From the NCBI GenBank assembly GCA_019695335.1, contig JAIBAF010000038.1, positions 1 to 34,271 on the forward strand: DNA of 34,271 bases. Direction: 5' to 3'. Under the pieces are notes generated by a model, which saw nothing but the letters and a program-made list of their open reading frames with translations, did not search any database and was not told the DNA's origin. Of the stretch, positions 17,229 to 33,071 are shown piece by piece. Source of the DNA: a bacterium (lineage in GTDB: Bacteria > CLD3 > SB21). Positions within the stretch are counted from its first letter, which is position 1. The number at the start of each line of letters is the position of its first letter. A program made the position numbers and the translations under genes.

Positions 17229-18152
17229 TTAAAGATATTTTTTAAAATCTTCCACAATTTCATGCGCCGTTTTCGGTAATACATTCGGATCTGTGACATC
17301 AAACCAACGAATACGCTGATCTTTTCGAAACCACGTCAGTTGACGTTTGGCGTAGTTTCGCGATCCTTGTTTAAACTGGCGGATCATTTCATCTTTTGAA
17401 ATTGAACCGTTTAAATACGCACTGATCTCCCGATAACCGAGACTTTCCATCGACACCAAGTTCTGTGAATAGCCTTTGTTAATTAGTCTTTGAGTTTCCT
17501 CAATCACTCCCTCTTCCAACATCCGGTCGATACGCGCTTCAATGCGGCGATACAATTCATCGCGATCACAGTTCAGACCGTAAAAAACGGACTCAAAAGA
17601 AAATTTCGGTTTTGGCGCTTTATGTAATTCCGAAATAGGTTTACCGGTAATTTCGAAAACTTCTAATGCCCGTTCAATACGTTTGGCATCGTTCGGGCTG
17701 ATTTTTTTTGCGCTTTCCGGATCGATATCGGCTAATTGTGCATGCAAAGCCGACGCACCCAATTCAACAATTTTTTCACGAATGTTTTCGCGAATGACAG
17801 GGTCGCTGATTTCTCCGGCAAAAAAACCTTCCGTCAGAGAACGAATATATAACCCTGAGCCGCCCACAACCAAAACGTTTTTATCGCGCGCCGTAATATC
17901 GTCGATGTGTTTCCGCCCCTCCAAACCGAATTGACCTGCATTATAAGTTTCATCAGGATCGACAATATCGATAAAATGGTGCGGTATCTTTTCGCGGTAA
18001 TCGAGCGAAGGTTTTGCCGTCGCAATATCCATGAAGCGATAAATCTGGCGTGAATCTGCGGAAATGATTTCCGCATTTAATGCCTCGGCAATCGCAATGG
18101 AGATGAACGTTTTCCCGACGGCCGTAGGGCCGACCAGAACAAGAATTTTCAT
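17229..18152 (-). CDS. miaA: tRNA dimethylallyltransferase
   Basis: Adds a dimethylallyl group to N6 of A37 in tRNAs reading U-starting codons, the first step towards ms2i6A. The 307 residues match the family. Motifs are the P-loop GPTAVGKT (8-15), SADSRQIYRFMDIATAKP with the catalytic Asp, VGGSGLYIRSL, and the C-terminal RNYAKRQLTWFRKD. The ATG at 18152 begins three bases after the mutL stop. The mutL-miaA order is conserved in many bacteria, and here the pair is almost certainly translationally coupled. No Shine-Dalgarno is visible, which fits coupling. Confidence 0.97.
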   Translation of the reverse strand: MKILVLVGPTAVGKTFISIAIAEALNAEIISADSRQIYRFMDIATAKPSLDYREKIPHHFIDIVDPDETYNAGQFGLEGRKHIDDITARDKNVLVVGGSGLYIRSLTEGFFAGEISDPVIRENIREKIVELGASALHAQLADIDPESAKKISPNDAKRIERALEVFEITGKPISELHKAPKPKFSFESVFYGLNCDRDELYRRIEARIDRMLEEGVIEETQRLINKGYSQNLVSMESLGYREISAYLNGSISKDEMIRQFKQGSRNYAKRQLTWFRKDQRIRWFDVTDPNVLPKTAHEIVEDFKKYL

Positions 18153-18155
18153 ACG

Positions 18156-19943
18156 TCAGGTAATTCTCATAAAACGACGATCCAACTCATCCAGGGTCAA
18201 TTGAATGATGATCGGCCGGCCATGTGGGCAAACATACGGAAATTTACATGCAAATAACTGATCGATCAGGCCATTCATTTCGTCGACAGTCAACGGATCG
18301 CCCGACTTGATGGCCGTTTTACAAGAAAAAGATTTAGCTAAACTATCACGAGGATCAAGATCGTGATTTTCATTTTCTTTATAATGCTGGATCATATCGA
18401 GCAATATCTTCTGCTCGTTGCCAAGCCTGACGTCGGCCGGGACCGCCTCGACGACGATCGTACGTTTGCCGAATGCCTTGACAACAAATCCCAGCTTCTC
18501 CATGAGTGGCAAAATGTGTTCGACAATGCCAAAATCTTCAGGCGTAAATTCGATCGTTTGTGGAAAAAGTAATTGCTGCGAAAAAATCGGATTATGATCA
18601 AACGCGTCCAATGCACGTTCATACAGAATCCGCTCATGAGCCACATGCTGATCGATAATGGCAATTCCGCTTTTAATTTGCGATACGATATACCGGTTAT
18701 GCAGTTGCCACACCAGCGTACTCGGATTGACCGGCTGCCGCTGAACCAATTGCCTTTGAACCTGAGTTTTCTGTTCGTCAGGCGTAAAAAATTGTGCAAC
18801 GCTTTCCTCTTGCCCTGTGCGCGTGGTTTCTTGCGCCGAAACTGTTTGGCCGAATTGAGTCACATGCCGTTGCGTTTCAAGCGGTAATACCGATTGATCG
18901 TTGAAATGCAATGTCGCGGTTTCGGCTGAAGCCTGATTGTCCATCGTTGGTATCAACGCGTCCGTCACCATGGAATCTTGCACTGCATGAAAAACAATAC
19001 GATATAATAATTGTTCATCTTTGAATTTAACCTCCGCTTTCGTCGGATGCACATTGACGTCAAATTCTTCAGAATTCCATTCCAGGAATAAAATGAAAAA
19101 CGGCTTGTCGCCTTTAGGAATCGAATGTCCATAAGCTGAGAAAACAGCATAACTGGCTGTACGATTGGTAATAGGCCGGCCGTTTAAAAACAAAAATTGT
19201 TCGCCGTGCGTTTTGTAAGAAAAACTGGGCTTACTAATATAGCCTTTGATGTAGGCTCCGAATTGATTTTTGTCAACCGGCAATGTGTACGACATCACGT
19301 CTTTGCCGATAACCTTTTCGAGACGCGCAGGAAGATCGGATTTTTTAAGCTGAAAAATTTTTTCATCTTCATGAATGAGCGTAAATTCAATCCGGGGATA
19401 CGCAATGGCAAACTTTTTCATCACGCCGGCAATATGCCGAAATTCGGTATTGTTTGTTTTGAGAAAGTTGCGACGCGCAGGAACATTGTAAAATAAATTT
19501 TTAACCGTAATAGTCGTTCCGGTTAGTCCGGCTTCCTGCGTAACTTCAGAAATTTTTCCTGCATGAATTTTCAGCAATGTCGCTACATCGGATTCTTTAA
19601 TACGGGTTTTAATATCGACGTCGGCAACCGAGCAAATACTGGCAAGCGCTTCACCGCGAAAACCAAAACTTTTGACGTGTTCCAAATCTTCCCAGACGGC
19701 GATTTTACTGGTCGCATGGCGTTCAACGCACAACAGCGCATCTTCCTGTGTCATTCCCGATCCATTGTCTATGATCTGAATGAGATTTTTACCGCCTCCC
19801 TTGATGGTAATTACAATTTCATCCGCTCCGGCATCGATGGAATTTTCAATCAATTCTTTGACGACGGATGCCGGACGCTCGACCACTTCCCCTGCGGCAA
19901 TTTTATTGGCAATATGTTCGGGTAAAATTTTGATTTTAGACAT
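18156..19943 (-). CDS. mutL: DNA mismatch repair protein MutL (endonuclease type)
   Basis: Links MutS mismatch recognition to strand excision. The 595 residues contain the GHKL ATPase (residues 1-330): ELIENSIDAGA, DNGSGM, GFRGEALASI and the GTTITVKNLFYNVPARRNFL region. After a Gln/Thr-rich linker (about 335-405) the C-terminal dimerisation and nuclease domain holds DQHVAHERILYE (metal-binding motif, Val in place of the first Ala of DQHAAHE), SCKTAIKSG and CPHGRP. This set indicates a nicking MutL, as in bacteria lacking MutH. The ATG at 19943 overlaps the end of the methyltransferase gene by eight bases. mutS is not in the window. Confidence 0.98.
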   Translation of the reverse strand: MSKIKILPEHIANKIAAGEVVERPASVVKELIENSIDAGADEIVITIKGGGKNLIQIIDNGSGMTQEDALLCVERHATSKIAVWEDLEHVKSFGFRGEALASICSVADVDIKTRIKESDVATLLKIHAGKISEVTQEAGLTGTTITVKNLFYNVPARRNFLKTNNTEFRHIAGVMKKFAIAYPRIEFTLIHEDEKIFQLKKSDLPARLEKVIGKDVMSYTLPVDKNQFGAYIKGYISKPSFSYKTHGEQFLFLNGRPITNRTASYAVFSAYGHSIPKGDKPFFILFLEWNSEEFDVNVHPTKAEVKFKDEQLLYRIVFHAVQDSMVTDALIPTMDNQASAETATLHFNDQSVLPLETQRHVTQFGQTVSAQETTRTGQEESVAQFFTPDEQKTQVQRQLVQRQPVNPSTLVWQLHNRYIVSQIKSGIAIIDQHVAHERILYERALDAFDHNPIFSQQLLFPQTIEFTPEDFGIVEHILPLMEKLGFVVKAFGKRTIVVEAVPADVRLGNEQKILLDMIQHYKENENHDLDPRDSLAKSFSCKTAIKSGDPLTVDEMNGLIDQLFACKFPYVCPHGRPIIIQLTLDELDRRFMRIT

Positions 19944-20880
19944 GTTGAACTTTTTTAACGATGAATAAAACGGTTGAACTCTTTTTTCCTGTCGATCCGT
20001 AAATAAGCGACCACAAACAAACGAAGGCCGTTCGTAGGCACAAGAATGGAGCTATGATCCATAAACGCTTCCGGATGATTTTAATTTCACTCATTAAACA
20101 ATTAAAAATTGTATCGAGAGGAATTTGTTTCGTTGCCATCACTGAAAACCCGGAACGCTGCAGCAATGTCGTCATCGACTGCGGAGTAAAATGATATAAA
20201 TGCCGGGGCGGATCGAGCGCTATCCAGTCGCAGCCATAAATCGATGCATCAAAACTGCTAATATTCGGTACGGCGATAACTAAAATTCCTTCGGGTTTTA
20301 ACTTAACTGAAATATTTTGCAAGGCTCGTTTCGCGTCGTGCACATGCTCCAATACATGCCACATCGTAATCACGTCAAACGTCTGATCTTGAGCGATCTC
20401 TGTATCAATTGTGCCCGTGGTTACATTCAGTTGCAACTTTTTGCGAGCAAATGCCGCAGCTTCGGCCGAAGGTTCAATACCGGCTACCCGCCAATCGTAT
20501 CGTTTCATTTCGCTGAGAAATTCACCCGTGCCGCATCCTAAATCGAGAATCGATCCTTTTCGAAAGTAATTTTCAATCTTATTTCTTTTCCATCCAACGG
20601 AGTATTGACGTACAGTCCGATATAATTTTGCGAATATATCGTCATGACTGTTCGAACTGAGAAACGGCGTATAGGTGTCGGCGGCATAATACACACCGAT
20701 CGATTGCTGACTCGGACGAGGATTCAGAAAATAAAACCCGCACGTTTGGCATTGTACAACCGAGTAACTTCCGTATTCATCGCGATAAGAAAATTTTGTT
20801 TCACTGATCTTTTCATCGCAAATCAGGCAGCATGTTTGCTCGAAGGCAACGGATTTTTCCGTTTGAATTTCAACTGACAT
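19936..20880 (-). CDS. Class I SAM-dependent methyltransferase with N-terminal zinc ribbon
   Basis: 314 residues. Residues 18-47 contain two Cys-x2-Cys pairs (CLIC and CQTC), a small zinc ribbon. This is followed by FYFLNPRPS, a typical lead-in to the methyltransferase-23/UbiG-like fold, then motif I in ILDLGCGTGEFL, the acidic end of strand 2 (GIEPS) and the post-motif TMWHVLEHVHD. The C-terminal ~50 residues are hydrophobic (FLCLRTAFVCLWSLIYG) and may associate with the membrane. Related zinc-ribbon methyltransferases often act on sugars, lipid precursors or surface polysaccharide, but the substrate here is unknown. It starts one base after the lipoprotein stop and overlaps mutL by eight bases, so it is part of the tightly packed run. 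Confidence 0.88.
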   Translation of the reverse strand: MSVEIQTEKSVAFEQTCCLICDEKISETKFSYRDEYGSYSVVQCQTCGFYFLNPRPSQQSIGVYYAADTYTPFLSSNSHDDIFAKLYRTVRQYSVGWKRNKIENYFRKGSILDLGCGTGEFLSEMKRYDWRVAGIEPSAEAAAFARKKLQLNVTTGTIDTEIAQDQTFDVITMWHVLEHVHDAKRALQNISVKLKPEGILVIAVPNISSFDASIYGCDWIALDPPRHLYHFTPQSMTTLLQRSGFSVMATKQIPLDTIFNCLMSEIKIIRKRLWIIAPFLCLRTAFVCLWSLIYGSTGKKSSTVLFIVKKVQHV

Positions 20881-20881
20881 G

Positions 20882-21256
20882 TTAGTTATAGAAAATTAAA
20901 TCGATCAACACGAAAACGCCTACCGACAAGCCCAGATATAGCAGATACGTACCGGCGCTCGAACCGCTGAAATGCTCACTTTCGATAATCACTTCCGATT
21001 TATCGAATTTGTAATCGATGGGTTCGCTTTTTTGGGATTCCCAGCACTGTGCATAAATAAATTGTTCATCCGTCCGTACTACATTCAGTTTATAAAAATG
21101 TTTAATAACGCCATTAGTAAATTTGACTTTCACATTACGCTGATGTTCGAGCGAGCCGTAAGTGCCTTCATTATAAATGACAGTTTTACTGAAATTGCCG
21201 CACGATGAAACTCCTGCCACCATCAATACCAGAACAATCCACGAAAAACGTTTCAT
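20882..21256 (-). CDS. Small lipoprotein of unknown function with C-terminal membrane helix
   Basis: 124 residues. Residues 1-19 form a lipoprotein signal (MKRFSWIVLVLMVAGVSSC, lipidated Cys19). The middle is a small beta-rich domain (VKVKFTNGVIKHFYKLNVV) that reads like a short regulatory or binding fold, and the chain ends in a hydrophobic helix (TYLLYLGLSVGVFVLIDLIF). No family was recognised. It sits 24 bases after the DUF1634-like gene and one base before the methyltransferase. The lipid anchor and the terminal helix together would give it two membrane attachments. Confidence 0.75.
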   Translation of the reverse strand: MKRFSWIVLVLMVAGVSSCGNFSKTVIYNEGTYGSLEHQRNVKVKFTNGVIKHFYKLNVVRTDEQFIYAQCWESQKSEPIDYKFDKSEVIIESEHFSGSSAGTYLLYLGLSVGVFVLIDLIFYN

Positions 21257-21280
21257 AAAATCCCTTTCCGATAACGGTTA

Positions 21281-21568
21281 CTAATGAACTATGTGCAGCA
21301 GCCAGGTTCCGCCAAACAACAACACAATTAACCCGATAGCCCACCACGCCATAAATAATTTACCTTGTTGAAACAACCGAGCAATTAAAAATAATAGGCC
21401 CGTCAATGGAGTAAGAAACAGTACCAATCCACCCAACTGAAAAAACAATTGTTCATCATTCTTCACAATTCCCAAAACAGGTAAGAATAAACTAATGATG
21501 AAAAATATGACGGTACTTAACGAACCGTACTGCATCAAACGTGCATAGATGTGGCTGAACTCAGTCAC
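21281..21568 (-). CDS. DUF1634-like small membrane protein
   Basis: 95 residues with three predicted transmembrane helices: SLSTVIFFIISLFLPVLGI, FFQLGGLVLFLTPLTGLLF and FMAWWAIGLIVLLFGGTWLL. The size, the helix pattern and the central LTPL motif resemble DUF1634, a family repeatedly found beside TauE/SafE permeases. It follows such a permease by two bases. A subunit or partner role for that transporter is inferred from the association; the assignment is by eye. Confidence 0.65.
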   Translation of the reverse strand: MTEFSHIYARLMQYGSLSTVIFFIISLFLPVLGIVKNDEQLFFQLGGLVLFLTPLTGLLFLIARLFQQGKLFMAWWAIGLIVLLFGGTWLLHIVH

Positions 21569-21570
21569 AT

Positions 21571-22398
21571 TTACTCCTCCGATTTAAGAATTAACCGGAC
21601 AGCCGATACGATCAAAACAGCAACCAAAACTTTGGTGATAACACTGGATTTGAGTCTGACAGCGGCTTTAGATCCGGCATGGGAACCCAGCAGCGTACCT
21701 AAGACCAGTGAAGCGCTGAGGTACCAATCAATTTTTCCAAATAAAGCGTACACCAGAGCTCCAGCCAAACCGGTAAAACCGATCATAAAACTACTCGTCG
21801 CTGCGGCAATTTTTATCGGTACTCCGCAAATCAGGTTCATCATCGGAACCTGTACGATACCGCCACCAACGCCCAGCATACCGGAAAGCCAACCAGCTAT
21901 CGCCGACAACCCGATACCTAGGCGCACCCGTTTAATTTTAAAATATTTTATCCCGGATTCCTTTTCTATTTCGCCATATAAATCCAATACGCCGTTGGTT
22001 GATGGAATGGAATCCATCAGGTTGCCTTCAGAAATTTTCTTTTTCCGTAAAAGCATGTATGCCGCCACCAGCATAAACGACGCAAAAATGATCAGCAAAA
22101 TCTTGGTGTTGAGAAAAACGGCTGTATAACTGCCTAGAAACGAGCCTAAAATCGTTGTGGATACCAATAACAGTCCTAATTGGAAATGCACTAAATTATT
22201 TTTAGCGAGAACCGATACGGTCATTACCGATGTTGAAATCAAGGAAACCAAGCTGGCTCCGATGGCGTTTTTGATATCCATATTTAATACGATGGTTAGC
22301 GCCGGTACGACAATAATGCCGCCCCCAAGCCCAACCAGCGATCCGAGAAACCCGGCCAGAAAACCGATGCCAATGTAGATCAGAAAAAAAAAGTCCAA
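21571..22398 (-). CDS. TauE/SafE (TSUP) family membrane permease
   Basis: 275 residues with about eight transmembrane segments arranged as two half-repeats, each starting with a glycine-rich motif: GSLVGLGGGIIVVPAL and GMLGVGGGIVQVPMM. These are the family marks of TSUP transporters, which export or import sulfite, sulfoacetate and related organosulfur anions; the substrate is unknown here. A charged cytoplasmic loop around residues 120-155 joins the halves. The start is a TTG at 22398: an in-frame stop lies six codons upstream and there is no other plausible start before residue 35. It begins eight bases after the protease stop. Confidence 0.92.
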   Translation of the reverse strand: MDFFFLIYIGIGFLAGFLGSLVGLGGGIIVVPALTIVLNMDIKNAIGASLVSLISTSVMTVSVLAKNNLVHFQLGLLLVSTTILGSFLGSYTAVFLNTKILLIIFASFMLVAAYMLLRKKKISEGNLMDSIPSTNGVLDLYGEIEKESGIKYFKIKRVRLGIGLSAIAGWLSGMLGVGGGIVQVPMMNLICGVPIKIAAATSSFMIGFTGLAGALVYALFGKIDWYLSASLVLGTLLGSHAGSKAAVRLKSSVITKVLVAVLIVSAVRLILKSEE

Positions 22399-22406
22399 TG
22401 GAACCG

Positions 22407-24140
22407 TTACCGTTTAGTCAATATTTTTTTGTATCCGTCCGCGTCGCGAAGAATTTTTACAGCTTCCTGGTATTGATGATCGTACCGGCTCGCCGCCATC
22501 GCGCTTGCTTTATGACCGTAATAACGCGAAATAATTTCCAATTCCAATCCGCGTTTGATCAAATCGTAATTCATATCAAAATCTTTATTTTTGACTTGCT
22601 TCACGGATTGCCCAAGATCGTCCAGTTTCGTCAGAAAGGCCTCATCGTAATCGCTTTTTTTAGAAATGTCCACCAGATTGTTCAGCGCCTTTTCTACAGC
22701 CGGAACATATGAAAATTTCTTCATTGTAAGATACTGCCGGAAATCTTCCATCAATATTGCATCGGCCGTGAATGTCGAATCGATCTTTTTGTGCTGCGCA
22801 ACAAAATGGGTCGCAAAATCAAAGATGATTCCTTTTTTCAAAATTTCCGTAAAAAATGTAGTGAATTCACGCGACGGAATCGCTACGTCCGGTGTAATGC
22901 CTCCATAGGCAAATACGGGTCGACCGGTTTTGGTCTTATACGGTAATACAGGTTTTTCATCTTCGCGCAAAGAGTCTTCAATGACTTCATCGACACCAAA
23001 CGTATCGTAAACCTCTTCATCACGTACAACTGATTGTGAACGGTGATATTTGGCCGAATAATCTTCTTTTTGAATGCAGCGTCCGCTCGGTGTAAAATAT
23101 TTAGCCGTCGTAATTTTCATAACGGCATTTTTTTCAGATAGTGGATACAATGTCTGAACCAATCCTTTGCCAAAAGTAGTCGACCCGATGATCACGGCGC
23201 GATCCAGATCTTGCAAAGCGCCGGCAACGATCTCAGCCGCGCTCGCCGTTCCGCCATCCACCAAAATGGCCAGAGGAATATCCGGAAGCATGGGATCGTT
23301 GGAAGCGGTATAATAGCGATTCGCGTCTGACGAGCGGCCTTTGGTAAAAGTAATCGTCTCCCCTTTTTTTACAAATTGATTGGTAATGTCAATCGCCGCA
23401 TCCAGTAAACCCCCGGGATTGCCGCGAAGATCAATAATCAATCCTTTCATTCCCTGCCGTTTCAATTCCTTCAAAGCCTGCGCCATATCAACGTCTGCTG
23501 TTTTCGAGAATTTGGTCAATTTGATATAACCGATTTGTTCCTGCGATACACTGGCATAGGCAATATTTTCAACGGCAATCATTTCGCGGATCAGTTCAAA
23601 TTCGATAGACGCCGATTCGCCTTCACGCATGATCGTGAGTTTAATTTTCGAACCCGGCTCTCCTTTGACGTAATTGGACATTTCCTGGTATTTCCAGTCT
23701 TTCGTCGAAAGCTCGTCCACCGCGATGATTCGGTCTCCGGGCAAAATACCCGCGCGTTGCCCGGGCGAACCGTCCGATGCTGAAATCACGGTAATGTAAC
23801 CGTTTTTGATACCGATCGATAAACCAATGCCGCCGTATTTACCCATCATCAGTGCATCGAGATCGCTGCTTTCATCGCCTTCGTAATACACAGTATAAGG
23901 GTCGAGTTTCGACAACAACCCGTCAATACCGGAACGGATAAAATCATGCGGCGTAATTTCATCCACATATTTTTCCGTTATGTTTTTATACACGTCGCCG
24001 AATAATCGCAATCCGCGCTTGACTTCATAATAATAATCGCCGCCTAACGACGTTTGGGCAAGCCATCCTCCGGTAAAAGCCGTCATCATCAACGCAACAG
24101 CCGTCATGACCGTTTTGGACTTGAGCGAGGGTAATTTCAC
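22407..24140 (-). CDS. C-terminal processing protease, S41 family (CtpA/Prc-like)
   Basis: A periplasmic serine protease with a Ser-Lys dyad. It has an N-terminal signal or anchor (VMTAVALMMTAFTGGWLAQ), an N-terminal domain, a PDZ domain (GIGLSIGIKNGYITVISAS to GDRIIAVDEL), and the S41 core with LRGNPGGLLDAAI, the catalytic Ser300 in GGTASAAEIVAG and Lys325 in TTFGKGLVQT, 25 residues apart as is usual. A 200-residue alpha-helical C-terminal extension follows. I prefer the GTG at 24140, because the Shine-Dalgarno-like GGAAGGTGAT ends four bases before it; a GTG at 24149 would add three residues. Seven bases or so separate it from the upstream peptidase gene. CtpA enzymes trim envelope proteins, including peptidoglycan hydrolases, so pairing with an M23 peptidase is meaningful. 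Confidence 0.95.
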   Translation of the reverse strand: MKLPSLKSKTVMTAVALMMTAFTGGWLAQTSLGGDYYYEVKRGLRLFGDVYKNITEKYVDEITPHDFIRSGIDGLLSKLDPYTVYYEGDESSDLDALMMGKYGGIGLSIGIKNGYITVISASDGSPGQRAGILPGDRIIAVDELSTKDWKYQEMSNYVKGEPGSKIKLTIMREGESASIEFELIREMIAVENIAYASVSQEQIGYIKLTKFSKTADVDMAQALKELKRQGMKGLIIDLRGNPGGLLDAAIDITNQFVKKGETITFTKGRSSDANRYYTASNDPMLPDIPLAILVDGGTASAAEIVAGALQDLDRAVIIGSTTFGKGLVQTLYPLSEKNAVMKITTAKYFTPSGRCIQKEDYSAKYHRSQSVVRDEEVYDTFGVDEVIEDSLREDEKPVLPYKTKTGRPVFAYGGITPDVAIPSREFTTFFTEILKKGIIFDFATHFVAQHKKIDSTFTADAILMEDFRQYLTMKKFSYVPAVEKALNNLVDISKKSDYDEAFLTKLDDLGQSVKQVKNKDFDMNYDLIKRGLELEIISRYYGHKASAMAASRYDHQYQEAVKILRDADGYKKILTKR

Positions 24141-24156
24141 TCGAATCACCTTCCTT

Positions 24157-26802
24157 TTATTTTGTTAAACCTACTTGTTCTTTTTCCCATTGTCCGATAA
24201 AACGCACTGCGTCAAAAGCGATCGTCCCTTTGCTTTGCCCGGTAGCATTGCTGGTATACACATAGACGTCGTCGTCAGCGTCAAAAGCATACGTACCCAG
24301 CGTCACCCATTCATCGGTAAATTTATTTTGATTTACTTTAACGGACTGAACACCGTTTTTATTATGAACTTCATACGTTGCCATTGCGGTTGCATATTTT
24401 TTCGGAATGTGCACCTGCACTTTATAATCGCCGGATCGCGGTAATTTTGGTTTCCATTTCACTTCGACGGTTTTAAGCGATTTAGTCACATTTACCCAAC
24501 GGTAACTGTGATAATAACCGCGCCTTTCAAACCATGTGTTGGGTATCTGCGGCTCATCGACAACAACGATATACGGCGGCTGATAATAATTATCTGAATT
24601 GAATGTTCCGCCGTTATACACCGTCTGTATGGCTGTAGAGTCGTTCTCAAATACCGGTTCCGGTGCTTGACAAATATCATCGACACGCAATTCCCAATGC
24701 ACATGCGGCGCGCTCGAACGTCCAGTTGTACCGCACGTTCCGAGTTCTTGTCCTTGTTTGACCGTTTCACCGATATCGACGGAAATGGTGGCTAAGTGTG
24801 AAACCAATGTTGTATACTTATGACCGCCGTACATATAATCAATTTTCACGGTCCGCCCGTAGCCCCGCATGTAGCCGGCAAACGCGACAACGCCATCCGT
24901 CGACGCACGAACCGGAAGACCGTAGTCACCGTCACTGCCTTCGTTCGATTCGGTATTGTTCAGATCCAGTGCATAACGAATGCCTCGGATGTGCCAGCCT
25001 TTATTGTAATAACTGCCACCACCACCCGCCGTCCACGCTCCCTGAAAAGGAAATTTATATTTAGGGAAATCTTCAACCACGACTTTAACCACGACGGGAT
25101 TAGACCACTGCCCGTTCTCATCCATAGCTTTGAAAAAAATGAAATGCGTACCGGGAAATAACTGCCGCGGTTGGGTTGTGAAACTCAACTGATCGCTCAG
25201 TTCGCCGTTGATACTGCTGCTCCAGCTAAATTTTACCGGTCGTTTGCCGTCAACGGCATGAACCTCACCTGCAAATCGTAATGTCTTGTACTTCCGGATT
25301 TTGATTTCGCCGGTACGAGCCTCTTCCTTGAGCAAATCCCAGATGCCGTGTTTGGCGCCACGACGAATACGTTTATCAAATACAATAATGCTCGACGCAA
25401 CTGTATCAATGCCGACTGAAAATTTTTTAGAAACGTCCGCTTTGTATTTGGTCACATCAACATTATTGCTGAAACTCAGCGCCAGCAAAGAATCATCTGC
25501 GCTTTCCCAACGGCTGGAATACGTCGTATCACGCGCCAGTTCGTCCCATTCGTCCCCATATGCGAGCGCATCACTTTCCATGCCGTCGGCTTGAGCTTGT
25601 AACGCCACCGATGGCGGTTTCAGAAAATAATTACGAAAATTCACCGATGATAAGGTCCAATTTCGGCCGCTATTGGCGGAATAAAAAATTTCTCCGTCAC
25701 CGCTGCTGCATAGAGCCACGGAAGCCGACAACGTCATAAAATGATACACCGCCTTATTAAATTCCGCGATTTTTGTCCATGTTTTTCCTTCATCATCCGA
25801 GGTAATAAGATTATAGGAAGCGAATTCTTGCGTTGCCGATGCAAAGTAATCCGATGGTACCAAATCTACACCGATCAATTGCCCGGACTGTATTGAAAAA
25901 TTTCCCACCAGTGTTTCGTTTATTTTAGTGTCTTTTTCATACGTTACGCGGCGAGTTTCTGACGAGGCAAATCCGTCGGAAGAATAGATCAGCACCGAAT
26001 TGCCATACTCATCACTGTCTTCGTTAATCGATTTTGCCAGTACATAAACCGTATCATGACTCATCTGCAAATTCGTACCAACCAAATTATAACCTGCATC
26101 GGCTTTCGCCTCTAATGCCGAAATCCATATATCGCCTCCGTCTGACGTTTTTAAAATCGTCAGGTTTTCTGGCGAAGAAACAAGATTGGCGAGAAGATAT
26201 CCCTTGTTTCCAGAAAACCGTAGCGAATGAAAAGTTCCCTGAAAACCTGTCGAAAACGATTTCCATGTTTTCCCGCCATCATTGGTTCTGAAAAGTTCAT
26301 CAGCCTGAGCCAGCGCCGACCCGATCATCCATCCGTTCAATGCATCGGTAAAAAATATTTGCTTCGGCGTAATATCTTCGGTAAAATTCATCGCCTTCCA
26401 CGTCTGTCCGTCGGTGGTAGCCAGGATGAATGTTTTGTCGGCGAAAACACGCGTGGCCACAACCCAGCAATGGCGCGCATCTAGCGCAAACAGATCGCGA
26501 ATTTCAATGCGCTCATCCGCGCTTTGCAAAACGGTCTGCAAAAACCAGCTTTGTCCGCCGTCGGTTGTTTTCAGCAGCATAGTTTTATAAACATTTTGTT
26601 TACCGATTGCATTGGTGAGACTGCTGTCGCCGGGATTTTTTACAACACCGCCGGTTTTGATCAAGCCCGCCGCCCATCCCGTCTGCTCATCCGCAAATGT
26701 AAACGTTACCGGTTTCTCAGCCGGCATCTTTTCCGTTTCACCGCTGTTTTGAAGAGTCAATGGAAAGAACATCAGAATCATTAACAAGAAAAAAACTGGC
26801 AT
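24157..26802 (-). CDS. Secreted propeller - M23 peptidase - golvesin-like multidomain protein
   Basis: 881 residues from the ATG at 26802, which has GAGG five bases upstream; a GTG two codons earlier lies inside that site. After a signal peptide come at least five YCF48/BNR-type propeller blades (TTDGGQSW, TNDGGKTW, TSDGGDIW, SDDEGKTW, SANSGRNW) to about residue 390. A linker and an Ig-like domain (about 500-565) precede an M23 metallopeptidase domain. Its ligands appear to be His604 and Asp613 (WHIRGIRYALDL), the SHLATI His, and His700/His702 in APHVHWEL. M23 enzymes cut peptidoglycan cross-bridges. The last ~135 residues (YYHSYRWVNVTK, GDYKVQVHIP, FDAVRFIGQ) match the golvesin/xanthan-lyase C-terminal fold. 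The first metal His is further from the Asp than in the classic H-x-G-x-D, so activity is likely but not certain. Confidence 0.88.
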   Translation of the reverse strand: MPVFFLLMILMFFPLTLQNSGETEKMPAEKPVTFTFADEQTGWAAGLIKTGGVVKNPGDSSLTNAIGKQNVYKTMLLKTTDGGQSWFLQTVLQSADERIEIRDLFALDARHCWVVATRVFADKTFILATTDGQTWKAMNFTEDITPKQIFFTDALNGWMIGSALAQADELFRTNDGGKTWKSFSTGFQGTFHSLRFSGNKGYLLANLVSSPENLTILKTSDGGDIWISALEAKADAGYNLVGTNLQMSHDTVYVLAKSINEDSDEYGNSVLIYSSDGFASSETRRVTYEKDTKINETLVGNFSIQSGQLIGVDLVPSDYFASATQEFASYNLITSDDEGKTWTKIAEFNKAVYHFMTLSASVALCSSGDGEIFYSANSGRNWTLSSVNFRNYFLKPPSVALQAQADGMESDALAYGDEWDELARDTTYSSRWESADDSLLALSFSNNVDVTKYKADVSKKFSVGIDTVASSIIVFDKRIRRGAKHGIWDLLKEEARTGEIKIRKYKTLRFAGEVHAVDGKRPVKFSWSSSINGELSDQLSFTTQPRQLFPGTHFIFFKAMDENGQWSNPVVVKVVVEDFPKYKFPFQGAWTAGGGGSYYNKGWHIRGIRYALDLNNTESNEGSDGDYGLPVRASTDGVVAFAGYMRGYGRTVKIDYMYGGHKYTTLVSHLATISVDIGETVKQGQELGTCGTTGRSSAPHVHWELRVDDICQAPEPVFENDSTAIQTVYNGGTFNSDNYYQPPYIVVVDEPQIPNTWFERRGYYHSYRWVNVTKSLKTVEVKWKPKLPRSGDYKVQVHIPKKYATAMATYEVHNKNGVQSVKVNQNKFTDEWVTLGTYAFDADDDVYVYTSNATGQSKGTIAFDAVRFIGQWEKEQVGLTK

Positions 26803-26814
26803 GAACACCTCAAA

Positions 26815-29061
26815 TTAATTCCATGAAGAAATATACCACAACGCAAAAGATCGTTTTTGTTCCAGTGCTTCGCGATCCATCGGTCGTTTGGCAACGACCA
26901 GAGCGCGATCATAATAAGTTATAGCTTTTTGCGCATTGAATAAACGAATCGAACTGTCACCGAGTCGTTGAAGCCTGTCTAATTCAAATATAGGATCGTT
27001 AAAACTGATGGTATCTAAAGTTGCCACGGCGTTTCCCCAGTTGCCTTGATTATGCCAAACCCGGCCTTTCCAATATACCGGTAATTTCAGTTTGGGGTTT
27101 TCTATAATTACACGCTCCAGAATATTCAACTGTTCGCCACGATTTTCAGTTTCCAGCAACTGTTTCAATGCGGACACCTGTTCAAGGTTATTAAAAAAAC
27201 TTAATCGTAAGTGGGCGCTGATATAGATATTCCGGATATGGCCATAATTCTTTAGTGCGGATGTGTAAATTGCCAAAGCGGAGTCAGGCTGGCTGAGTTG
27301 TAAAAACATATCGCCTTTCAAAACCATTGCTGAAGCCGACGCAGCGTAATTCATTTTTTTTGAATCGAACAATAAGTTTAGCGCCTCCAAAGCTTCGTCG
27401 AAATAGCGCGAATAATACCAACACCGTATGCGGCTCATTCGCAATCCATAATTATCCGGATCAATTGCCAAAGCCTGATCGAACCATCGGCCGGCTTCTT
27501 CATAATCATTGCGGGCGTACGCTTCAAATGCCTGTGCACTTATTTCGGCAACACGATGCGGGCAACGTCGCTGAAATAAACTCGGTTGAATCAAAAGTTC
27601 GGCAAAGTGAACATCCTGCTCTGTTATAACAATCGAATCCAAATTTTGCGACCACTCGCCGATCAAAGCTTCTCCGGTTTTGCGATACACTTCTTCCAAC
27701 GTGGAATCGTTGTAGGCATGCTTAAATCGTTCAATGCCGTACGTATCGATCAGAAATTTTACAAATGAACCGCTGATAATATAACTCATGCCCGAAGCCG
27801 TCCAAAAAAAATTTTCGCCCTCGATCATCGGTAAAACCGGAGGCAATTTATTTAATCGTTTTAAAGCTGCCGACCACTCGTGCGGCGTGAAATAATTTTC
27901 GTTCCACTCAATCGCTACAGCCAATCCTTCGAGAAAACCGATGCGGCGCGTACTGTAATACCGATTTGCAAATGCGCCTGCAAGAACGTGCACAATTTCA
28001 TGCCGGAGCACCGCTTCCGCTTCGTCAGCATTGACATGAATTTCATTGCGCCAGATTTTTGCGAAGTTGGTTGATCCGGCGCCCATGAGTTTTTTTTTCT
28101 GCTGCGCATCACGGTAAACAAACAGCGTTACCAGTCTGTCGGCTGATAAATTCAATGCCCGGTAATTTTGTCTGTAAAAAAACTCCGACTGCGCCGCAAG
28201 CAATCGTATCGACGTCGAATCAATACCGGGATCAAATTTCAACCGAACGTGCTGCGTCTGAATTTCACCGGCCAATTCAGCTTCGAGCTTGGAATACGAA
28301 ACATCAAAACCGATGGCTTCACGATTCAATTCAATTGCCAAAATTGACAGGGCAATCATTCCAGGCACCATCCATAAACGGCCGAAATCTTGTCCTGACT
28401 TTTTATTCCAACCATAAACGCCAATAAAGCCGAGAAACAATCCCCACAGCACTGTGCCAATGCGAAACCACACCAACGTTGAATCGATCGGTATCAGTTC
28501 GTCATAAATCGGTCCCGCAAAATAACCGAAAAAATTGGAATAAACAAAAATCGGAACGCGGCTGAAAACTATCCAAATATTATACGCAATGGCAACGACG
28601 ATAACAACGTATACGCTTGATTTTTGAAATCGACGAAACCAGCCGCTAAGGCCGTAACCCAAACTGCATCCGAAAATTGTGGCGGGAAGCGGCAACAGTA
28701 AGAACCAAAATAAACCTCGGGTGCCGCCGCATCCATTGGCAAAAAACGAATAGCCGAAAATCGTCAAAAATGACAATCCGGCATTGAGGATGCTTGTGAC
28801 TATAATTATAGAAAAAATATAGAGATTCGTCGTCCTTTTTTCAACGCTTATTTCGGCTAAAATTCTGGCCGATTCGGCAGCCCAGACCGGCGACGTAAAG
28901 ATTAAAATAACCGATAAAATTTCATTGAATTCATAATCAAATTCATTGAATAGCGGCTGAGTCAATAAAAGCAAGGTTGCGGCGAGTTGAAAAACGACGG
29001 ACGCTTTCGTCCAAAACGAACGTTTCCAAATCAGCCTATACGATTGGAGCAACGCGTTCAT
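26815..29061 (-). CDS. Membrane zinc metalloprotease (gluzincin, MA-like) with C-terminal TPRs
   Basis: 748 residues. The first ~260 hold about six to eight hydrophobic segments in an ABC-2-permease-like arrangement. Next is a peptidase-MA-like domain with the zinc motif HEIVH (His354, Glu355, His358) and Glu378 in GFLEGLAVA, the 20-residue spacing expected of gluzincins. After it come TPR-like repeats (AFEAYARNDYEEAGRWFDQA, IRCWYYSRYFDEALEALN, PDSALAIYTSALKNYG, RLFNAQKAITYYDRAL). The protease and TPR parts are probably extracytoplasmic. I do not know a named protein with this order; the joining of a multi-helix membrane domain to a gluzincin and TPRs is unusual. It begins three bases after the lipoprotein stop (TAGCCTATG) and ends 12 bases before the M23 gene. 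Targets unknown. Confidence 0.82.
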   Translation of the reverse strand: MNALLQSYRLIWKRSFWTKASVVFQLAATLLLLTQPLFNEFDYEFNEILSVILIFTSPVWAAESARILAEISVEKRTTNLYIFSIIIVTSILNAGLSFLTIFGYSFFANGCGGTRGLFWFLLLPLPATIFGCSLGYGLSGWFRRFQKSSVYVVIVVAIAYNIWIVFSRVPIFVYSNFFGYFAGPIYDELIPIDSTLVWFRIGTVLWGLFLGFIGVYGWNKKSGQDFGRLWMVPGMIALSILAIELNREAIGFDVSYSKLEAELAGEIQTQHVRLKFDPGIDSTSIRLLAAQSEFFYRQNYRALNLSADRLVTLFVYRDAQQKKKLMGAGSTNFAKIWRNEIHVNADEAEAVLRHEIVHVLAGAFANRYYSTRRIGFLEGLAVAIEWNENYFTPHEWSAALKRLNKLPPVLPMIEGENFFWTASGMSYIISGSFVKFLIDTYGIERFKHAYNDSTLEEVYRKTGEALIGEWSQNLDSIVITEQDVHFAELLIQPSLFQRRCPHRVAEISAQAFEAYARNDYEEAGRWFDQALAIDPDNYGLRMSRIRCWYYSRYFDEALEALNLLFDSKKMNYAASASAMVLKGDMFLQLSQPDSALAIYTSALKNYGHIRNIYISAHLRLSFFNNLEQVSALKQLLETENRGEQLNILERVIIENPKLKLPVYWKGRVWHNQGNWGNAVATLDTISFNDPIFELDRLQRLGDSSIRLFNAQKAITYYDRALVVAKRPMDREALEQKRSFALWYISSWN

Positions 29062-29064
29062 AGG

Positions 29065-29901
29065 CTACCATGCCGGCTGAAAAACACCGGCTGTTTCAAT
29101 GGCATTGACGATGTAGTAATAACGCTTAACGGATAATTTGGATGGCGCAAAAACTTTCAATTCGTATGAACGCCCATCACGGCTGATTTTGAGATGATAT
29201 TCGACCGGATACGAAACCGCGTATGAACTATCACTCGGCAATAACCAAACTTTATAATTTTCTAAAATTCTCCACAATTCCAGATACTCTGTCCAATCTA
29301 CATTAGCCGAACGATTGCCAAACACCTGAACGTTGTTCTCACGGTGAACAAATCGAACGGAATCAATCCGGTTATGTACACGATCCGAAACGGTTAAAAT
29401 AATACTGCTTTGTACAAAATCAAGTTTTTGAAATGTATCTTCGAAATGCTGTAATGCCCATTCAATAAATTTTCGATTATTTTTTTCAGACGGTAAACCA
29501 ACGAACGAAACGTTTTCATCTCCGTCAAACCTCATAACAAATTGATCGCCGGATCCTTCCGAGGCCATACTGCCATCGCCGGATTTCCACATTTCTGTCC
29601 GTGTCCATTCATAAAGATCCGTTGATTGATCGGGCGTCAATTCGAAGGTGTCCAACATGCCCGCACGTAATACTCCGCCTTCGCGGTAATCAAGAAAATC
29701 CGTTGAGGGGTTGGTGCGTACGACATAAAAAAGCGCACGCGTCGAATCCGTATCGCTTCGTTTCCACCCGAGAGTAATTTTGAACGCGTGGGCTGAATTA
29801 CTGACGGTCAATGTACGTTGCCATCCGGGAGGAAACACCGTTGAGGCAGGCCTGCAACTATTCAACACGATAAAGAAAGCAATAATCCATTGGCGTTTCA
29901 A
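29065..29901 (-). CDS. Lipoprotein of unknown function
   Basis: 278 residues if translation begins at the TTG at 29901. That start has GGAG about ten bases upstream, leaves one base after the preceding stop, and yields a clean lipoprotein signal, MKRQWIIAFFIVLNSC, with lipidated Cys. The ATG at 29925 would add eight residues that precede the charged part of the signal and would overlap the previous gene, so it is less likely. The mature part is beta-rich with many Trp, Tyr and Asp; I recognise no domain. Its location between a kinase/CMD pair and a membrane protease suggests an envelope role, but nothing in the sequence states one. Confidence 0.75.
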   Translation of the reverse strand: MKRQWIIAFFIVLNSCRPASTVFPPGWQRTLTVSNSAHAFKITLGWKRSDTDSTRALFYVVRTNPSTDFLDYREGGVLRAGMLDTFELTPDQSTDLYEWTRTEMWKSGDGSMASEGSGDQFVMRFDGDENVSFVGLPSEKNNRKFIEWALQHFEDTFQKLDFVQSSIILTVSDRVHNRIDSVRFVHRENNVQVFGNRSANVDWTEYLELWRILENYKVWLLPSDSSYAVSYPVEYHLKISRDGRSYELKVFAPSKLSVKRYYYIVNAIETAGVFQPAW

Positions 29902-29902
29902 A

Positions 29903-30235
29903 TTACTTGTTCTCCAATATATCATTTACCCAACTCAATGCGGCCATCATTGACGGAAAACCAACCGTAGTCAGAGCCAGAATGGCCACATGCCGGATTT
30001 CATCCGGTTTTGCTCCGGCTTCGAGAGATTTGCGAACATGTGAATGTACCGCACCCTCATGTTTCAATCCGATGGCAATGCCTAATTTAACTAACGCCGT
30101 TGTTTTAACGTTCAGGGGCCCCGCTTCTTTGCTGGCCTTGGAAAGGAGGTTGTAAGCCTTGGCTACATCAGGATAAGTTTTAACGAATTGGGTAAAGTGG
30201 GCCGGAAGTTTTTTCGGAGAAGCTTTTTTGGGCAT
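29903..30235 (-). CDS. Carboxymuconolactone decarboxylase (CMD/AhpD-like) family protein without the Cys pair
   Basis: 110 residues from the ATG at 30235, with a Lys-rich start (MPKKASPKKL). The CMD fold is marked by TTALVKLGIAIGLKHEGAVH, HVRKSLEAGAKPDEIRHV and TTVGFPSMMAAL. AhpD-type members have a CxxC followed by His that reduces peroxiredoxin; here those positions read HEGAVHSH, so no disulfide chemistry is possible, though His residues remain. Other Cys-less members of this type exist. The function is unknown; a small all-helical oligomer with catalytic or binding His is likely. A TTG at 30253 overlapping the kinase stop is an alternative start; neither has a good ribosome site. It lies ten bases after the kinase and one base before the lipoprotein. 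Confidence 0.82.
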   Translation of the reverse strand: MPKKASPKKLPAHFTQFVKTYPDVAKAYNLLSKASKEAGPLNVKTTALVKLGIAIGLKHEGAVHSHVRKSLEAGAKPDEIRHVAILALTTVGFPSMMAALSWVNDILENK

Positions 30236-30245
30236 GATTTTTTTA

Positions 30246-32390
30246 TCATTCAAATTGATATTCGATCTTCGTCGTGTTTAATGCCCTTATACGCAGCGTT
30301 ACTTCGTAGAATTTTTTGAATTGCGGATGTGCCAATCGTAATTTGTGGAATCCGGGTTTGACTTCCATTACGCTCGGCGTGGTCAAGTCTTTGACGCGAA
30401 CGGTGTTCAAATACACTTCCGCGCCTGGCGGCGTCGTGACAAGTTCGATAAATCCATTGGGATTGGAAAAAACAACCGTCACTTCCGTGGTATCGTTTTT
30501 TTCAACTTTCACGGCGCGTGATTTATTTTCGTTGCGGTAAACACCTTTGACGGTATGGTCATTGGCCAGCAGGTGATTCTGATAAAACGGAGTCGTACCG
30601 GAAATCGTTCTGTCATCGTCAAGATAAATTTCCGCGCCGGTCGGATTGGATTTGATCAGCAGCGTGCCGTACGTGGGTTTGAGCGAATCGGCCAATTCAA
30701 GCATCTCATCCGATTTGACTTCGATCGTTTTGTCGAGGTCTTCATATCCTTCAGCATGAATGGTGATATTTTGTTCTCCCACTTCAAGACTGTATGCTCC
30801 CGATCGTGTCCGGATTTGTTTTTTTCCATCGGCTAATAATGTCGCCGTTCCCGGAAAAACTTTATCGACCGATACCAGCCCACGTTGTTTTTCGAGCGAT
30901 AAATTGACATAACTGGTTTTATTTTTCAACAGAGCAACGTCACGTTTTTTATTCGAGAAATCCGGTTTTGAGAACAACAAAGTGTACCGCCCGCTCGGAA
31001 ATGCCAATTTATCAATCGGCGTATAACCTAAAAATTTACCATAACTGGTTTCCACTTTCACCATTTCCGGCACGGATTGAATGCTGAAATACGCCGTGTC
31101 GACATTCGGTGGAATCTCTACCGCCTTGAGTTGCAACGAGACATCAATCTTTTTTTCTTCTCCGGCAGCAAACACTAACGGCGCGGCGTATTCTTCATAA
31201 TGTTCGCGTCGCACGGAAAGAACGTGTTCACCAATATCCAGATTTTCGACGCTGACAACGGCGCCTTGAACATTGACCGGCTGACCGTCAATGGCCACTT
31301 CTGCGTCCGGCACATTTAATTTAACTGTCAACGACGGAGGTTTTCGACCCATCGCCAGTCTCGTAACGGCGTCAAACAAGCCGTGATGATCGCCCGACAT
31401 GAGCAGAATCAGAAGCAATGTGCTTACGCAAGCCCATGCAAAAGAGATCATATTGAAAATGCGGTTAGCAAATAATTTTTCAGTCTCCCGGCGCAAAATT
31501 GCAATCACCGTCCGGTCTTCGGCAAAGGCCAACTCCGTACCGACGGCATTGCCATTCAGAAATTCTTTGACGTTTTTCAAATGACGCGCCAGTTCTTCGA
31601 TCGATGCGTAGCGTTTGTCGGCATTTTTTTTCAACGCCTTCATTACAATATTGCTTAACATTGCCGGCAAAGTGGAATTCAAAGTTGCAGGCGCCGGCGG
31701 ATTATCGTTCACCACTTTGTACATAATCTCCGTCATATTTTTACCGGTAAAAGCTTTTTCGCCGGTGAACAGTTCGTACATCACTGCACCAACTGAAAAA
31801 ATATCGCTACGATAATCAACCGACTTGCCGGTAATCTGTTCCGGTGACATGTATCCGGGCGTACCGAGAATCGTCCCGATCACCGTACGCGTGGAAGTAG
31901 TAACTTTCGCAATGCCGAAATCCATGATTTTCGCCAAGCCCTCGTGACTAACAATAATATTGCCGGGCTTGATGTCACGATGGATCACGCCGAACCGGTG
32001 TGCATAAGTAAGACCTTCACATACCTGCAGCAATATATCAATGATCTTATCGAGAGGAAGATTTGTCTTCGCGCTGAGCATTTTTTCCAGCGTTGTGCCG
32101 TCGACAAATTCCATTGCGATGTACGACAAGTCGCCTTCTTCCTGAACATCGTAAATCGTCACGACGTTGGGATGCGACAGACGGCCGGCAAACTGAGCTT
32201 CGTGAAAAAAACGTTCGCGGAATTCTTTAACCTGAGCCTCCGTCATGTCGGCGCGAATTTGTAATGTTTTGATCGCAACAGTCCGGTTGATCCGGTCGTC
32301 CGATGCTTTATACACCACTCCCATTGCGCCTTGACCTAAAACGTCGAGAATGCGGTATCGTCCGAGTTTTTCTATTTTAAGATCTTGCAT
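30246..32390 (-). CDS. Membrane Ser/Thr protein kinase with five PEGA repeats
   Basis: 714 residues. Residues 10-275 are a Hanks-type kinase: the Gly loop GQGAMGVV (19-26), VAIK with Lys41, HRDIKPGN with Asp139, DFG at 157-159, and GTPGYMSPEQ. A transmembrane helix (about 311-332, FNMISFAWACVSTLLLILLM) should leave the kinase in the cytoplasm and the rest in the periplasm. Residues 350-714 form five consecutive ~70-residue PEGA modules, clearest in the last two (KSNPTGAEIYLDDD, VTTPPGAEVYLNTV). PEGA modules are found in surface or periplasmic proteins and probably bind the envelope. This gene is upstream of twelve tightly spaced genes with peptidases, so those products are candidate targets. 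The ATG at 32390 has no Shine-Dalgarno. Its C-terminus is colinear with that of the partial gene at the window edge. Confidence 0.95.
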   Translation of the reverse strand: MQDLKIEKLGRYRILDVLGQGAMGVVYKASDDRINRTVAIKTLQIRADMTEAQVKEFRERFFHEAQFAGRLSHPNVVTIYDVQEEGDLSYIAMEFVDGTTLEKMLSAKTNLPLDKIIDILLQVCEGLTYAHRFGVIHRDIKPGNIIVSHEGLAKIMDFGIAKVTTSTRTVIGTILGTPGYMSPEQITGKSVDYRSDIFSVGAVMYELFTGEKAFTGKNMTEIMYKVVNDNPPAPATLNSTLPAMLSNIVMKALKKNADKRYASIEELARHLKNVKEFLNGNAVGTELAFAEDRTVIAILRRETEKLFANRIFNMISFAWACVSTLLLILLMSGDHHGLFDAVTRLAMGRKPPSLTVKLNVPDAEVAIDGQPVNVQGAVVSVENLDIGEHVLSVRREHYEEYAAPLVFAAGEEKKIDVSLQLKAVEIPPNVDTAYFSIQSVPEMVKVETSYGKFLGYTPIDKLAFPSGRYTLLFSKPDFSNKKRDVALLKNKTSYVNLSLEKQRGLVSVDKVFPGTATLLADGKKQIRTRSGAYSLEVGEQNITIHAEGYEDLDKTIEVKSDEMLELADSLKPTYGTLLIKSNPTGAEIYLDDDRTISGTTPFYQNHLLANDHTVKGVYRNENKSRAVKVEKNDTTEVTVVFSNPNGFIELVTTPPGAEVYLNTVRVKDLTTPSVMEVKPGFHKLRLAHPQFKKFYEVTLRIRALNTTKIEYQFE
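30406..30497. repeat. Nucleotide repeat unit A (between PEGA genes)
   Basis: By eye these 92 bases align without gaps to 33311-33402 with 80 identical positions (about 87%). They encode the junction of PEGA modules 4 and 5 of the kinase. The match reflects gene duplication, perhaps refreshed by conversion. Confidence 0.7.
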
Positions 32391-32717
32391 GGGTGTGTGC
32401 GATCGTGTGTCGTGGTGAGAACCGTTGGATGTTCCATTACCCGCAAACCAATTGCGGAATTAGTTACACAGATTTTATTGAAATACCACAGGCGAAGACT
32501 TGTGGTTTTGAGTAAAACTCAACATAGCAAAAATCAATATCTTTGGCAAAGATAAAAAAAAATTGTTCAATGCTGTTTTCTTGGAAAAGATTGAAGGACA
32601 AAGCCAAGACGGAAAAAATCATTTCATTGTAATTTTTTAATTGCAAATTCGCTTTTTTTGAATGATACTATAGGAAGAATACATTTTTCATAAACCTAAC
32701 TAATGGGAAAAATAACC
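32391..32717. other. Divergent intergenic region between kinase and SWIB genes
   Basis: 327 bases with no credible gene. It contains three short inverted repeats near the kinase side: CCGCAA/TTGCGG (32441-32457), ACCACA/TGTGGT (32485-32506) and TTGAGT-aaa-ACTCAA (32508-32522). A possible SWIB promoter lies on the other side. No strong kinase promoter was found. Confidence 0.6.
32641..32671 (+). promoter_or_regulatory. Possible promoter of the SWIB gene
   Basis: TTGCAA (32641-32646) and TACTAT (32666-32671) are 19 bases apart, slightly long, but TGA directly before the -10 makes an extended -10 element. The SWIB start is about 45 bases downstream. Confidence 0.4.
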
Positions 32718-33071
32718 ATGGCAAAGAAGAAGAAACCAGCCAAGAAGGCAGCCAAAAAGAAAGCCGTTAAGAAGGCCGTTAAAAAAGCTGCAAAAAAACC
32801 GGCAAAGAAGAAATCAGCGCGTAAGCCCAACGCTGCTTTCATGGCGAAACTGACGCCCAGCAGCACTCTGGCGGAGGTTATCGGTTCACAACCCAGACCG
32901 AGAACAGAAATGATCAAAAAGATCTGGGATTATATCAAGAAAAACGGGTTGCAGGATAAAACGAACAGACGCATGATCAATGCGGACGATAAACTTCGCT
33001 CGCTTTTCGGAGGTAAGGGTCAAGTTTCCATGTTCGATCTTGCCAAGATCGTTTCAAAAAACGTGAGCTAA
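32718..33071 (+). CDS. SWIB/MDM2-domain protein with Lys/Ala-rich histone-H1-like tail
   Basis: 117 residues from the ATG at 32718 (MAKKKKPAKK); an ATG at 32703 would add five residues. Residues 1-38 are almost only Lys and Ala, like histone H1 or chlamydial Hc tails, and should bind DNA without sequence preference. Residues ~42-117 are a SWIB domain (AFMAKLTPSSTLAEVIG, MIKKIWDYIKKNGLQDKTN, INADDKLRSLFGG, VSMFDLAKIVSKNV). Stand-alone bacterial SWIB proteins are known from Chlamydiae and many FCB bacteria and are thought to act on chromatin or topology, but their role is poorly defined. It is the only plus-strand gene in this part, placed between two PEGA genes and closed by a strong terminator. 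Confidence 0.93.
   Translation: MAKKKKPAKKAAKKKAVKKAVKKAAKKPAKKKSARKPNAAFMAKLTPSSTLAEVIGSQPRPRTEMIKKIWDYIKKNGLQDKTNRRMINADDKLRSLFGGKGQVSMFDLAKIVSKNVS

Follow-up and report, generated by a model that had tools for sequence, protein, structure and literature searches.

A protease-containing gene run in the distal part of a putative superoperon, conserved in one family of an uncultured bacterial phylum

Twelve closely packed genes

The window analysed here is an entire 34-kb contig (34,271 bases) from a 3.76-Mb genome assembly in 130 contigs. By ORF coordinates, twelve genes follow one another on its minus strand from 32390 to 17229 with no intergenic gap above 24 bases, exactly as a preliminary description of this DNA had stated. 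From the head of the run, with two flanking features at the end, they are:

30246-32390, minus strand: KIN, a Ser/Thr kinase with five PEGA domains, an optional head gene (Pfam, motifs, hydropathy)
29903-30253, minus strand: CMD, a small CMD-family protein devoid of Cys, optional (PF02627; likely start ATG 30235)
29065-29925, minus strand: lipoprotein, lipobox ending at C24 (without Pfam match; translation probably from TTG 29901)
26815-29061, minus strand: gluzincin-TPR protein (Pfam TPR only; HExxH and EG in the sequence)
24157-26808, minus strand: M23-golvesin protein with signal peptide, YCF48/sortilin-like propeller, M23 and Golvesin_C domains (Pfam)
22407-24149, minus strand: S41 carboxyl-terminal processing protease with PDZ domain (TIGR00225)
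21571-22398, minus strand: TSUP (TauE/SafE) permease (PF01925, 1.5e-50)
21281-21568, minus strand: small membrane protein, DUF1634-like, encoded next to the permease gene (PF07843, weak, below cut-off)
20882-21256, minus strand: second small lipoprotein (no Pfam match)
19936-20880, minus strand: SAM methyltransferase (Methyltransf_23)
18156-19943, minus strand: mutL (domain search)
17229-18152, minus strand: miaA (domain search)
32391-32702, no strand: intergenic region of 312 bases separating KIN from a divergent SWIB gene (ORF coordinates)
33150-34271, minus strand: KIN2, a PEGA kinase paralogue truncated by the contig end to its C-terminal part; outside the operon, neighbour of a putative rearrangement breakpoint

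From KIN to miaA, the gaps are -8, -23, 3, 6, 7, 8, 2, 24, 1, -8 and 3 bases, and the two larger overlaps disappear with start codons at ATG 30235 for CMD and TTG 29901 for the lipoprotein, the starts to which relatives point. Such spacing is not special on its own, because the trpS-scpA-scpB-rluB-cmk run of the same genome is close-packed as well. Several internal promoters and terminators had been named beforehand as evidence that would speak against a common unit; in our scans, both promoter-like sites (34 versus 32.6 expected) and terminator-like sites (26 versus 21.3 expected) stayed at background level. In the window's genus, the operon promoter probably lies in the divergent region 32391-32702. 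Rfam and tRNA searches found no RNA family or tRNA within the window.

Pfam and family searches bore out the earlier domain labels and added the propeller of the M23-golvesin protein, which the first reading had not listed. KIN combines a kinase domain (Pkinase, 1.2e-56) with intact VAIK, HRDIKPGN and DFG motifs, a single transmembrane segment by hydropathy (314-332) and five PEGA stretches on the outer side. With PknB/Stk PASTA kinases it has in common the membrane Ser/Thr kinase architecture, extracytoplasmic repeats and a similar kinase domain, but it carries PEGA instead of PASTA, and its 332.8 bits fall below the 450-bit cut-off of the PASTA kinase model NF033483. CMD clearly belongs to its domain family (PF02627, 8.1e-15; 55 bits versus a cut-off of 23). 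It is free of Cys, as previously noted, and so are the block copies in two related genomes (G001 and G006); the CxxC redox pair of AhpD is therefore absent.

The S41 protein exceeds the TIGR00225 cut-off (300.4 versus 218.6 bits), retains the Ser-Lys catalytic pair (GTASAAE at 300, TFGKGLVQ at 325) and a PDZ domain, and has Pseudomonas aeruginosa CtpA among its closest solved structures. The M23 domain (PF01551, 4.9e-22) carries the zinc ligands and the HxH motif, with H606, D615, H671, H702 and H704 invariant in the family. The gluzincin-TPR protein consists of a polytopic N-terminal domain with a GYFxGPIYDE motif, an HExxH motif (354-358), a downstream EG (378-379) and C-terminal TPRs. Because the active-site motifs of KIN, S41, M23 and gluzincin-TPR are intact, all four are expected to be working enzymes. 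The structural model of the lipoprotein at 29065-29925 (pLDDT 59) gave no usable structure or PDB match.

Gene order within the family and its superoperon setting

The family sample comprised seven genomes from four genera (the window genome and G001-G006), with G007 and G008 representing the sister family. The gene order is common to all seven, and the run is therefore very probably a true operon, its genes presumably transcribed together. G001, from the window's genus, has all twelve genes in the same order and with similar spacing. So do G004-G006, which form another genus, with identities ranging from about 29% for the lipoprotein to 75% for MutL; here the DUF1634-like gene was missed by BLAST in G004 and G005, yet is visible in its slot. 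Indeed, a small membrane protein occupies that slot in all genera, and the second small lipoprotein (20882-21256) is likewise kept in all of them. G003, of a third genus, retains eleven genes and has its CMD homologues elsewhere in the genome. In G002, of the fourth genus, the set lies in two contig pieces: M23-golvesin through miaA on one contig, and scpB, cmk, lipoprotein and gluzincin-TPR on the other. The same order at similarly tight spacing in G001 and G003-G006 is more than would be expected by chance. Homologues of gluzincin-TPR and of full-length M23-golvesin were not found in G007 and G008, whose mutL lies in another setting.

How much of a kinase-led, self-contained module does this leave? 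The preliminary description had taken the first six genes to be one, and their conservation in relatives does hold: they stand together in two genera (the window's and that of G004-G006), and G003 has five of the six. In G002, however, neither kinase nor CMD lies between cmk and the lipoprotein, an absence read from continuous sequence even though the assembly is 85% complete, and no CMD gene was detected anywhere in that genome assembly. By its distribution, the kinase is thus an optional extra at the head rather than the operon's defining part, and it was either gained after the G002 split or lost in G002.

Nor do the six genes stand alone. In G002-G006 the run extends upstream into cmk, rluB, scpB and scpA, a continuation that we checked gene by gene in G002, G003 and G005. 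In G003 and G005, trpS, scpA, scpB, a GRDB-like gene, rluB and cmk lie immediately upstream of the kinase, whose start lies no more than a few tens of bases from cmk; G006 shows the same ORF pattern, and G004 has cmk in that position. Since the sextet directly follows scpA-scpB-rluB-cmk in three of the four genera and travels with the next six genes through mutL-miaA, it is not self-contained. What remains of the module reading is a conserved co-directional run, which together with scpA-scpB-rluB-cmk would make up a superoperon of roughly 19 genes in those three genera. Its ancestral order may have been trpS, DUF3137, scpA, scpB, GRDB-like, rluB, cmk, KIN and CMD (both optional), lipoprotein, gluzincin-TPR, M23-golvesin, S41, TSUP, DUF1634-like, lipoprotein, methyltransferase, mutL and miaA. 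The twelve-gene run would then represent the distal stretch of an ancestral superoperon that is confined to a single family within an uncultured phylum.

The window's genus departs from this arrangement: trpS-scpA-scpB-rluB-cmk forms a separate run, with cmk followed by a DUF58 gene. In G004 the DUF58 gene (58% identity) instead comes after KIN2 (DUF58 loci L159:8587-9900 and L169:15257-16570), and the upstream neighbours of KIN2, namely glgP, bcp, hpnE, hpnD, hpnC, thiO and KIN3, are the same in G004 and in the window genome. This exchange of DUF58 neighbours is most simply explained if the window's genus underwent a rearrangement that had its breakpoints beside two paralogous PEGA kinases and carried the whole block to KIN2. 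In the MutL tree (FastTree), G002 branches first, followed by G004/G005 and then by G003 with the window's genus (local supports 0.90 and 0.97); a concatenate of four proteins gave the same branching order. The cmk-adjacent arrangement is therefore likely to be ancestral. KIN2 itself is split between the end of the window contig (33150-34271) and contig C81 (L032:1-1150), and these two contigs are neighbours in the genome.

Relatives of the gluzincin-TPR protein

The most novel component of the run is the gluzincin-TPR family, which lacks a Pfam peptidase assignment and yet is widespread, including in culturable myxobacteria. At E 0.01, Pfam matched only the TPR part of the protein encoded at 26815-29061 and no peptidase profile, although the protein displays the HExxH motif, downstream Glu and TPR C-terminus that mark M48/BepA proteins. 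H354, E355, H358, E378 and G379 are invariant in 33 aligned homologues. A GTDB scan with a gluzincin-TPR alignment retrieved 187 loci encoding relatives; the best 80 come from Poribacteria, Latescibacterota, Zixibacteriota and Myxococcaceae (Myxococcus, Corallococcus), among others, with HExxH present in all 80 and the GPIYD motif in 78. The AlphaFold model is confident (pLDDT 91.4), and in a fold search its PDB matches were TPR proteins, E. coli BepA among them at a TM-score of about 0.25 by target length, a value so low that the match is no proof of a shared protease fold.

BepA is a periplasmic M48 protein (PMC7950410, PMC8423444) and resembles the gluzincin-TPR protein in having an HExxH metalloprotease domain followed by a C-terminal TPR region and in its location in the envelope. 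The window protein differs in its polytopic N-terminal domain, its GxxxGPIYD-type motif and its lack of a Pfam peptidase match. Gluzincin-TPR appears to be an uncharacterised, widespread family of membrane proteases.

Do its relatives keep the same company? Among the best 80 of the 187 loci, 77 lie outside the family, and near these we found no relative of KIN, CMD, the lipoproteins, S41 or TSUP, nor did any conserved partner emerge. In Poribacteria, within the same best 80, the usual downstream gene encodes a nucleotidyl-transferase/GHMP-kinase protein. Across 386 genomes, the full-length M23-golvesin protein was found in seven, all of them family members, and the full-length lipoprotein (29065-29925) in the family only; a single further genome gave weak, partial hits to it. 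The viral contigs searched yielded no relative. The neighbourhood search proposed in the preliminary description thus did not recover the six-gene set outside the family, either at the best 80 GTDB loci or in the 386 genomes searched for the M23-golvesin protein and the lipoprotein. Except for its widespread membrane protease, which lacks a Pfam peptidase entry, the block holds little that is out of the ordinary. In one distant genome (L031:7287-10870, a single case), a kinase gene and a gluzincin-TPR gene share about 15 bases, and a second kinase with an FGE-sulfatase domain lies upstream of this pair.

A possible envelope-maintenance core and its alternatives

What could such a core do? The long and tidy layout of the operon may suggest a dedicated signalling system, but comparison with relatives trims this to a conserved protease core within a housekeeping superoperon. 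We propose that the conserved core of the distal part encodes envelope maintenance proteins. The CtpA-type S41 protease would limit or process envelope proteins, with the co-encoded M23 wall hydrolase as the first candidate substrate. The membrane-anchored gluzincin-TPR protein might serve as a second quality-control protease or as a partner that holds substrates, comparable to BepA and to the TPR adaptor LbcA, respectively. KIN, one of a family of paralogous kinases, would have an accessory part and would probably sense the envelope through its PEGA domains. That the operon core is an envelope maintenance set, with proteases acting on or beside the M23 wall hydrolase, we regard as the likeliest reading and put at about even odds. 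What the sequences establish directly is the gene anatomy, its conservation and the intact catalytic residues; how the proteins work together is inferred.

The putative link between S41 and M23 draws on the adjacency of their genes and on analogy. In P. aeruginosa, CtpA and its lipoprotein partner LbcA degrade the M23 hydrolases MepM and PA4404 (PMC6050968), and the window run likewise combines an S41 CtpA-type protease, a TPR protein and an M23 wall hydrolase. Unlike in that system, the genes form a single run, propeller and golvesin domains accompany the M23 peptidase domain, and the TPR region is fused into a polytopic membrane gluzincin, whereas LbcA is a separate TPR outer-membrane lipoprotein; neither lipoprotein of the window matches Pfam, so that an equivalent separate partner is not apparent. 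Enterobacteria, too, place a wall hydrolase gene upstream of mutL-miaA, in the amiB-mutL-miaA operon. There, however, the hydrolase belongs to a different family, and the window run has extra genes between hydrolase and mutL. If the protease core works as proposed, control of wall hydrolases by CTP-type proteases would extend to an uncultured phylum. The gluzincin-TPR family, with its members in Poribacteria, Latescibacterota, Zixibacteria and Myxococcota, is amenable to laboratory study.

Not every gene fits an envelope-maintenance role, as mutL, miaA, the methyltransferase and TSUP show no evident link to wall metabolism. Hence the operon could be functionally miscellaneous, with a shared promoter and an order kept by descent only, as in many superoperons that bring together mutL-miaA, scpAB-rluB-cmk and envelope genes with no function in common. 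Its mixed content, in which several genes have no plausible joint role, its clearly housekeeping upstream neighbours and the lack of any grouping of set members outside the family (best 80 of 187 loci; 386 genomes) are in line with this explanation. What it accounts for less readily is that the order of the lipoprotein, gluzincin-TPR, M23-golvesin and S41 genes, of which three encode proteases, is preserved within the family while the flanks rearrange. We therefore hold a miscellaneous operon to be a real possibility, if not one we favour.

A kinase-controlled system of envelope signalling and remodelling, as the preliminary description had it, in which KIN would sense the wall via PEGA, phosphorylate a cytoplasmic part of the module and thereby set protease activity, seems unlikely. 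True, three of the four genera have KIN ahead of the block, its catalytic motifs are intact, and the overlapping kinase and gluzincin-TPR genes in L031 fit such a link. Yet G002 keeps the protease genes without KIN, which hence is not an obligatory controller, and KIN is only one of several to many kinase paralogues per genome. Moreover, most of the module's proteins are predicted to be exported and offer little cytoplasmic surface, and no KIN relative lies near the 77 non-family loci within the best 80 of 187. The literature on PEGA kinases and golvesin peptidases, as searched, yielded nothing on such a system. We similarly doubt the more far-reaching version, namely that gluzincin-TPR constitutes an undescribed class of polytopic metalloproteases with a TPR scaffold and forms a wall-control pathway with S41 and M23-golvesin that is gated by the PEGA kinase. 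Finally, a mobile or horizontally moved cassette is highly improbable: although the block changed place in one piece in the window's genus, a rearrangement beside two paralogous kinases accounts for its relocation, the domains found in it include no integrase or transposase, the window contains no tRNA or Rfam element, the GC content of the block resembles that of the surroundings, and in the MutL tree the sister family is separate from the family genomes.

Other features deserve a brief mention. L168 (G004:C8) and G002:C250 contain several Ser/Thr kinase genes arrayed in tandem, many of which encode 700-1000 residues. Divergent from KIN, 32703-33071 encodes a SWIB-domain protein with a Lys/Ala-rich, histone-like N-terminus. 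Further along the window, 9606-13145 encodes a 1179-residue protein without a Pfam match that is 44% conserved in G003, where it lies beside an NHL gene.
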